Source: Saccoglossus kowalevskii
Taxonomy: Eukaryota > Hemichordata > Enteropneusta > Harrimaniidae
Assembly (NCBI RefSeq): GCF_000003605.2
Contig: NW_003128369.1
Location: 453,201-517,200, forward strand
Reading direction: 5' to 3'
DNA: 64,000 nt
Shown here: positions 37,001 to 40,000 of the stretch, in pieces
How the letters are laid out: every line of letters starts with the position of its first letter
How positions within the stretch are numbered: the stretch's first letter is position 1
Position numbers and translations under genes: made by a program
Notes under the pieces: model-generated
Told to the model about the DNA's origin: nothing
Database searches by the model: none
What the model saw: only the letters and a program-made list of their open reading frames with translations

Positions 37001-40000
37001 TCCCTACATGGCAATATGTTGTCCTTATATGGCATAATATAATGTGGTTTTAAAATGTCCCTACATGGCAATATGTTGTCCTTATATGGCATTATAATAT
37101 CATGTGGTTTTAAAATGTCCCTACATGGTAATGTGTTGACCTTTTATGGTAATGTGTTGTCCTTTTATGGTAATGTGTTGTCCTTTTATGGTAATGTGTT
37201 GTCCTTTTATGGTAATGTGTTGTCCTTTTATGGTAATGTGTTGTCCTTATTTGGCACTACAATATATCCTTTTATGGCATTATGTCATGTGGTTTTGAAA
37301 TGTCCCTACATGGCAATGTGTTGTCCTTATATGGCATTATAATATCATGTGGTTTTAAAATGTCCCTTTTATGGTAATGTGTTGTCCTTTTATGGTAATG
37401 TGTTGTCCTTATTTGGCAATGTGTTGTCCTTATTTGGCATTACAATATATCCTTTTATGGCATCATGTCATGTGGTTTTGAAATGTCCCTACATGGCAAT
37501 GTGTTGTCCTTTTATGGTAATGTAATATCCATATATGGCTTCCAATTTAGGTCACTTTGCATCAGATGATATACAGCTAAAGATTCTTGGACTTCAAGAC
37601 AAATGGCAACAACTCAAAGTAAGTCAATCCTTAATAACATCACTTTGTTGGTTCTGATAATTTCATAAGGTTATTAGTCAAAAGTTTGCTAAGATGATAA
37701 AAAATAACATTTGTTCTCATTGACCCGAATTGTTTATTTGTCCAGCAGCTTTGAACAAAATAATTTTGAAATAAAATGTTGGAATTCTAACTTGTGAATT
37801 TATTTGCAGGACAAAGCATACCAGCGTAAACAAGACTTGGATGACTCTCTACAAGCTCATCAATACTTTGCGGACGCTAATGAAGCCGAGTCTTGGATGA
37901 AAGAAAAAGAACCAATAGCCGGAAGTGAAGACTACGGAAAGGATGAAGATGCTGCAGAGGTATGACAACTTTACCTACATGTTGCTTTATTATGGATTAG
38001 TCCCATTTGTTTTATCACGATGGGTCAAACCATTCATAGAATATGGGGGTCAAACCCTACTGCATATTATGAGGGTGAAAGAGTTACCATGCAAATTCAA
38101 TAAACAGTTCGGAATAGGACTAACTGTGGTATTTTGTGATCGAGTGATGCTTGTATTGATTATTGTACGAAGCATTGCTACTTGTATGTAGTAAACGTCT
38201 TTTGCAAGATAGAGTCATAGCTGCATTTCCGGACATTGTCAACCAACAATCTGTGTATGTCTTAGTGAATAAATTTTATAAATTAACGTCACTATAATTA
38301 CAGACAGTGTGTGCTCTACCTGAGCTCAGCAACTTATTTATGCCGTACTGGACATTAATTCTAAATTAATTTGCAATGTCTTTATTTTTAGTCTCTATTG
38401 AAGAAGCATGAAGCCCTGATGTCTGATTTGGTTGCCTACAGCACCAGTATTGATGCACTACAACACCAAGCACAAGAATGCAGAGTGAGTTGTATTTCAT
38501 TTTATCAGCCTTTGACACACAATTTTTTTCTCAACTAGCCAGTGGCTACCAAAAAGTAAAAAAAAATAGTAGCCCTGTGACGTTTTTGGGACTACTTTAT
38601 TGCATGCGTCTGAATACATACTTTTGTAATGGTGTTATATGTCACCTGATCACCCGAGTGTATGGATATGTAAAAAATAGTGCTGTTGGTGTAACTGAAA
38701 ATGGCGGAATAAACAAGAAGTTATACTTGAAAGCTCTCTGGTTTCTTTGATGTTTCGTGTGTAACAAACCTAAACTAATTTTTACTTGCCAGTACAAACA
38801 ATTTAATAATTTTCAGCCACATTGGCATTCATTTTAGTCTAGAGCCAGTTATTCTACCATATTGTGGATTTCAAGTTTTCAAATCATTTTATTATTCTGC
38901 ATAAATGACAATACTTAATGCGTGGGTGAATTGTATCAAAAAATGCATGATGCAATGCAAGTTCTCAGTGGAAAAACAAGTGTAGTTCAGCTCTCACAAA
39001 ATGATAATTAAAAAAAGATTTCATTCTTTCTTCATTATCTTCTATTTTGCCACAAAACAATCCTGTTTGGATGTCACGGTCATTGTCAATAAACAAATCA
39101 ACACCGCCTTATACTCGCAGCTTCTATAACTGAAGTATGCCCTCACAGTGAATAATACTCATAAGAACCCTGCATCTCGATAACTCAAATTATTTTATTT
39201 TTCAGCAACAAGAAGCTCCTATTGGGGATGATTATGGCAAGGAGTGTGTACTAGCTCTGTATGATTACGTTGAGAAGAGTCCTCGTGAAGTGTCCATGAA
39301 GAAAGGTGATGTTCTCACCCTTCTGAACAGTGCAAATAAGGTATGTATGACCACCCTCAGATGAAATGGTTTAACCCTGGCATTGTTCATATAGAATGTT
39401 CCATTTTTACTTTGGGTATAACTAGCATGTCTGCATAAGGAGGGGTTAAAATGATAAATGAAATTTGTCTATTTGTTTTGTTTTTGCAAGTCCTTACAAG
39501 AAAACTAGAAAATGTAAAAAAAAATATTTCACTGATATTTTAAATATGTTGAAGCTGAACTTTGAAAGAAGCGTCTGATTGGATAACTCACCCTAACTGG
39601 TAATGACCTTCGAAGGGAGATTTAAATTAGTCTTATATTGCATGCCTTTAAACCTTTGTCTGATTTTATAGTATTCTGCCACAAATTGCAATGTTGTTTT
39701 TTTTAATTTATTTTACCGATTTAGACCAGAGACATTTAAGTTTTTTTTTCTTGATTTGTTGATTGCTTTTCCAGTTTGTAAAGCCTGGCCAAATTGGCGA
39801 CCCTCATGTAAGTTTTTTACCAAGTGGTGTTCTCTGGAATGAGGTGCATTGTGGGTAACTAGGTGTACTCTGGAATGAGGTGGTTGGTGGTGTCTTGTAG
39901 TAACACAGTTGCATTTCTAATAAACAAAATTGGTTTGTTTTGATTGGGGTTTTGACAAAAGCACTGAATTCACATGTAGCAGTAATCACAATTAATTGCC

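Follow-up and report, generated by a model that had tools for sequence, protein, structure and literature searches.

A candidate 33-nt cassette microexon in the n-Src loop of the alpha-spectrin SH3 domain of Saccoglossus kowalevskii

The alpha-spectrin gene and the segment within its SH3 domain

The stretch of DNA analysed here, referred to as the window, comprises 64,000 nucleotides (nt) from the hemichordate Saccoglossus kowalevskii (G000:C2039:453201-517200, in a 572-Mb genome) and carries an alpha-spectrin gene whose SH3 domain is split by an intron. Within this intron lies a 33-nt segment that has the anatomy of a cassette microexon and is the subject of this report. The gene model was obtained by spliced alignment, with alpha-spectrin of the fly as guide and GT-AG introns only, and the gene is complete in this predicted model, with 49 coding exons and 48 introns. 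The features on which the argument draws are as follows.

21780..56505, plus strand: alpha-spectrin coding region (spliced model; ATG at 21780 and TAA after 56502 read in the sequence)
39206..39340, plus strand: SH3 exon, first part, ending ...LTLLNSANK, phase 0, donor GTATGT (spliced model; SH3 matches)
39341..39774, plus strand: upstream part of the SH3-splitting intron, with a T-rich tract, UGC at −11 to −9 and a 32-nt AG-free stretch before the acceptor AG (sequence)
39775..39807, plus strand: candidate cassette microexon, 33 nt, phase 0 at both ends, 11 residues, stop-free (sequence reading; splice scores)
39808..40796, plus strand: downstream part of the intron, opening with GTAAGT (sequence)
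40797..40945, plus strand: SH3 exon, remainder, starting DWWKVEV..., phase 0 (spliced model; acceptor score 8.5)

The letters of 39775-39807 are TTTGTAAAGCCTGGCCAAATTGGCGACCCTCAT, flanked by ...GATTGCTTTTCCAG before and GTAAGT after, and the acceptor reads ...TTGATTGCTTTTCCAG. The 11 residues that the segment would encode are mostly turn-forming and near-neutral. A preliminary description of this DNA had given the same position, length, phase at both ends, peptide, acceptor and GTAAGT donor. The flanking exon ends on which it relied, 39340 and 40797, were reproduced by the spliced model, and its placing of the insertion between K1000 and D1001 is exact, since the coding sequence from the ATG at 21780 to 39340 counts 1000 codons.

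The SH3 domain of alpha-spectrin is a textbook example of the SH3 fold and is strongly conserved. The 172-residue piece containing it matched both PF00435 and PF00018, and the joined SH3 sequence is identical at 51 of 56 positions to the solved structure 7s4r_A, a non-erythrocytic alpha-spectrin SH3, as counted on the alignment. When the insert-bearing SH3 sequence was compared with solved spectrin SH3 chains by phmmer, the three alignments listed opened an 11-residue gap in these chains exactly between NK and DWW, where residue 39 of chain 1aey/1shg (62 residues) is followed by residue 40. Residue S36 of spectrin SH3 has been assigned to the n-Src loop (PMC3118354). The predicted insert peptide therefore falls in the n-Src loop, inside the SH3 domain, and the phmmer gap confirms the location proposed in the preliminary description. 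The observation made there is thus confirmed, while its interpretation is partly supported.

The intron that splits the SH3 domain measures 1456 nt and ranks fourth by length among the 48 introns of the model, which leaves room for a cassette exon. On the 3′ side of the candidate, two direct copies of 29 nt that are 86% identical (39826-39854 and 39862-39890) start 36 nt apart; these are possibly a duplicated intronic element.

Splice sites, composition and chance expectation

The 48 introns of the model served to train splice-site matrices, and the modelled sites were scored leave-one-out. The candidate acceptor scores 7.62, a value reached or exceeded by 26 of the 48 modelled acceptors (median 8.1), and the donor, in which CAT is followed by GTAAGT, scores 8.15, reached or exceeded by 29 of the 48 modelled donors (median 9.1). 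Both sites are ordinary and usable, and lie within the range of the modelled sites of the gene. The preliminary wording of a strong acceptor and an ideal donor was overstated, as both fall just under the medians. The outer sites, both of which were part of the training set, score 10.7 for the donor at 39340, above the gene median, and 8.5 for the acceptor at 40797. With outer sites of this strength skipping should be easy, as a cassette exon needs.

The same acceptor at 39775 could also open a longer exon ending at 39843, which would add 69 nt in frame and 23 residues. This reading is likewise open, with a combined score of 13.5, but it is outscored by the 33-nt segment (15.8) and we regard it as very improbable.

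The composition of the candidate differs from that of its surroundings. Its GC content is 48.5%, as against 31.6% in the introns and 31 and 35% in its own intron flanks, and such a value is reached by 8% of stop-free intronic 33-mers. Four of the 11 insert residues are proline or glycine, which occurs in 0.37% of intronic stop-free 33-mers, though this measure was picked after the peptide had been seen and is linked to GC content. Both properties are unusual for an intron and speak against the possibility that the segment is a chance pseudo-exon, in which 33 open bases lie by coincidence between an AG and a GTAAGT and are ignored or spliced as noise, so that the SH3 domain is always canonical. 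A repeat origin of the 33 nt was considered and rejected, since a 69-nt query matched itself alone in the genome (very common words were skipped).

The pseudo-exon alternative was gauged by counting AG...GT segments of 3-51 nt, a multiple of three in length and lacking an in-frame stop, whose combined score was 15.77 or more. In the sense introns of the gene two of 526 candidates reach this score, 39775-39807 itself and 33880-33897. In the antisense introns one of 486 does so, 36197-36223, and this same segment is the one among 1480 candidates on the minus strand of the exon-masked window. Twenty other 10-kb stretches of the contig, in which 146,043 of 200,000 bases read N, yielded one among 3475 candidates in 107,914 strand-bases, corresponding to 0.0135 per 1456 nt; this single case is 3 nt long, and none of 15-51 nt was found in those strand-bases. 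Among 1500 introns of 1456 nt simulated with a third-order Markov model, 40 (2.7%) hold at least one equal candidate, and 24 do so when candidates are restricted to 15 nt or more. For an intron of this size, the probability of meeting an equal candidate by chance is thus about 1.4-2.7%, which moderately disfavours a pseudo-exon; the background is small and drawn from one contig.

Several observations nevertheless weigh against a genuine exon and favour the pseudo-exon. The antisense segment 36197-36223 scores equal or better, and when the background is pooled by hand, 3 cases in about 220 kb imply an expectation of about 0.37 for the introns of the gene, which total 27.5 kb, so that a scan of the whole gene would meet something as good roughly one time in three. 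The same gene holds, in 33880-33897, a segment with a higher combined score (17.7), and the splice sites of the candidate are mid-range. The codon log-ratio of the candidate is −2.77, favouring intron; a value at least this high is found in 25% of intronic stop-free 33-mers, and one this low in just 0.9% of the coding 33-mers of the gene. Codon composition gives the coding reading no support, although the helical spectrin repeats on which the codon model was trained make it ill suited to judging a peptide from a loop. Taken together, we consider a pseudo-exon to have a substantial probability that stops short of even, whereas the chance that the segment is a real exon, whatever its regulation, appears to be even or slightly better.

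Segment 33880-33897 is itself a phase-0 segment of 18 nt (ECGNVM) in the intron 32430-36567 (4138 nt), with UGC upstream, and is either a second real cassette or a gauge of the chance rate. The intron 51914-53379 (1466 nt), one of just four longer than 1 kb in the model, presumably corresponds to a site in the last repeats at which a small insert is spliced in vertebrates; its best small in-frame candidate, 52481-52504, is weak with a score of 11.7.

A genome search with the SH3 domain and the first repeat as query scored 61 candidates and gave at least 18 matches. A retrocopy or paralogue retaining the spliced form was not among them, in that the 18 matches listed include neither a retrocopy nor another alpha-spectrin. 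Apart from the gene itself, the SH3 matches listed consist of SH3 frames with 31-44% identity, and a match on contig C4662 is, by reading of its frames, a beta-spectrin without an SH3 domain. A search for relatives with this intron, using as query 49 residues from the beginning of the second SH3 exon, confirmed none in viral_contigs (24 pattern stretches) or genome_contigs (170), collections that are viral and prokaryotic and hence uninformative on conservation among animals.

Elsewhere in the window, no RNA families at gathering threshold and no tRNAs were found. Runs of N occupy 43139-43664 and 2776-2825, the former inside the alpha-spectrin intron between the exon end at 43096 and the exon start at 43697. 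On the opposite strand, 3′ of alpha-spectrin, a long open frame (61434-63245, minus strand, 604 residues read) encodes a BTB-BACK-Kelch protein of the KLHL type.

Possible regulation and an Srrm234-like gene

In the fly, exons dependent on eMIC have a median length of 31 nt; their acceptors are described as very weak, with UGC close by, long zones free of AG, UCUC motifs and strong CUAAY branch points, and their donors as weak, next to strong donors upstream (PMC8797185). The candidate resembles the fly exons in its length of 33 nt, in its UGC at −11 and its 32-nt AG-free zone, and in an upstream donor stronger than its own (10.7 versus 8.15).

A gene that could supply the corresponding factor was sought in the genome, and an Srrm234-like locus was recognized on contig C3527 by a cwf21 match (E-value 3.2e-7). 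Further along the same strand lie an apparent second half of cwf21 and then arginine/serine-rich (RS-rich) frames, one of which gives a partial SRRM_C match (positions 12-55 of 67, E-value 0.0015, 19.6 bits). The frame with this match ends at a GT after RRITR, and beyond it the sequence from 516001 to 520762 is a run of N. Two frames of this locus (L035) are of particular interest.

C3527, about 521984-522298, minus strand: Srrm234-like frame ending in RRITR, with the partial SRRM_C match
C3527, about 521236-521433, minus strand: RS-rich, terminal-looking Srrm234-like frame with a stop

These two frames may reflect alternative processing that includes or excludes the eMIC. Judged by its frames, the locus is probably an eMIC-bearing Srrm234 gene, though the match is partial. 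If it does bear an eMIC, this animal would be a bilaterian with the neural microexon machinery. The Srrm234-like gene and the UGC at −11 together make neural control of the candidate possible.

Such control is in turn disfavoured by a number of findings. Of 48 other acceptors, 13 also have UGC close by and 34 follow an AG-free zone of 32 nt or more, and because both are this common neither is distinctive. In contrast to the very weak acceptors described for fly eMIC exons, the candidate acceptor lies near the median of the gene. Neither a CUAAY branch point nor UCUC/CUCU occurs within 60 nt of the candidate acceptor. The acceptor of the next exon likewise has no CUAAY and no UCUC within 60 nt; CTAAY is present within 60 nt of just 4 of the 48 acceptors of the model, and the fly consensus may not suit this animal. 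The SRRM_C match falls below the Pfam cut-off (19.6 versus 27 bits), and a search of the whole genome for SRRM_C returned nothing at an E-value of 0.001 or lower, a search in which 0 of 14 controls were detected either.

The absence of several fly eMIC features at the candidate is also what would be expected of a real microexon that is not neural, included instead in another tissue, such as muscle or epithelium, or at another stage, under factors other than eMIC, Rbfox or muscle regulators for example. This possibility overlaps with a regulated cassette exon in neurons and differs from it in the regulator. It draws further on the vertebrate SH3i variant of alpha-spectrin, which is included in heart, and on two TGCATG words in the host intron (39639 and 40777), but two such words are unremarkable against 0.78 expected. 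On this evidence we find a non-neural microexon unlikely.

Interpretation and comparison with known microexons

The most economical reading of the candidate is a cassette microexon. We estimate the odds as even that alpha-spectrin really uses the 33 nt as a cassette microexon, its inclusion probably restricted to some cell type. From the anatomy, the frame and the position in the SH3 domain described above, we infer the splicing of the segment, its regulation and its effect on binding as follows. Skipping, favoured by the stronger outer sites, would yield the canonical SH3 domain, whereas inclusion would make the n-Src loop 11 residues longer at the edge of the peptide groove, beside the conserved tryptophan. 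By analogy with Src and intersectin-type SH3 inserts such as that of ITSN1, the longer loop may direct the spectrin SH3 domain to other proline-rich partners while leaving the fold untouched. Inclusion might be limited to a certain cell type by the action of an eMIC (Srrm234) factor at the UGC by the acceptor. Neurons are the first guess, because alpha-spectrin already hosts microexons in human SPTAN1, in zebrafish sptan1 and in the worm.

These alpha-spectrin microexons have been described as a 15-nt SRRM4-responsive exon in human SPTAN1 (PMC7935315) and a conserved 15-nt exon in worm spc-1 (PMC7706725), and removal of the microexon in zebrafish sptan1 gave mild neural phenotypes (PMC12626420). 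The candidate resembles those of SPTAN1 and spc-1 in being a small exon of an alpha-spectrin gene, theirs being 15 nt. The SPTAN1 microexon lies, we assume, in repeat 15.

A splice variant tied to the SH3 region is also documented in vertebrates, where the SH3i variant of alphaII-spectrin is bound specifically by Mena and VASP (PMC10340426). SH3i and the candidate are alike in being alpha-spectrin splice variants associated with the SH3 region. We take SH3i to be a 20-residue insert after the SH3 domain, which would match the 212-nt intron following the exon 40797-40945. On that assumption the two differ in position, with SH3i C-terminal of the SH3 domain and the candidate insert inside it. 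No n-Src-loop insert in alpha-spectrin is described in the titles and opening abstract lines of the open-licence papers listed, and this agrees with the preliminary description, whose author knew of no such splice variant.

The closest parallels come from other SH3 proteins. The inserts of N1- and N2-Src, of 6 and 17 residues, sit at the n-Src loop, which in Src contacts residues flanking the PxxP core, and they alter the choice of ligand (PMC4509517); the parallel with Src drawn in the preliminary description is therefore sound. The comparison is with a different gene, and the spectrin exon is a candidate. Relative to the Src sequence, the spectrin insertion is presumably two residues closer to the conserved DWW, and the Src insert more basic.

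A second parallel, which the preliminary description had not named, is microexon 20 of ITSN1. This neuron-specific exon makes the n-Src loop of the SH3A domain 5 residues longer, and the insert lowers binding of SOS and Cbl and raises binding of dynamin 1 (PMC3645719). Both protein and insert differ from those considered here, and an effect on spectrin would be by analogy. Read from its sequence, the candidate has in common with the n-Src-loop microexons of SH3 domains that it would be a small in-frame exon and that its peptide falls in the loop.

One may speculate further that alpha-spectrin of an invertebrate carries a neuron-restricted, eMIC-driven switch in the n-Src loop of its SH3 domain, arisen independently of N1-Src and ITSN1; this full proposal is tentative, and we rate it as possible but rather doubtful. 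Were it true, the SH3 domains of three unrelated cytoskeletal or signalling proteins, alpha-spectrin, Src and ITSN1, would each have been altered by a microexon inserted at this loop. A natural, regulated lengthening of the spectrin loop by 11 residues would in itself offer a ready test of how loop length bears on SH3 specificity and folding and point to a switch of partners of the spectrin skeleton in one tissue, and it would add to the cases in which microexons have converged on the n-Src loop.
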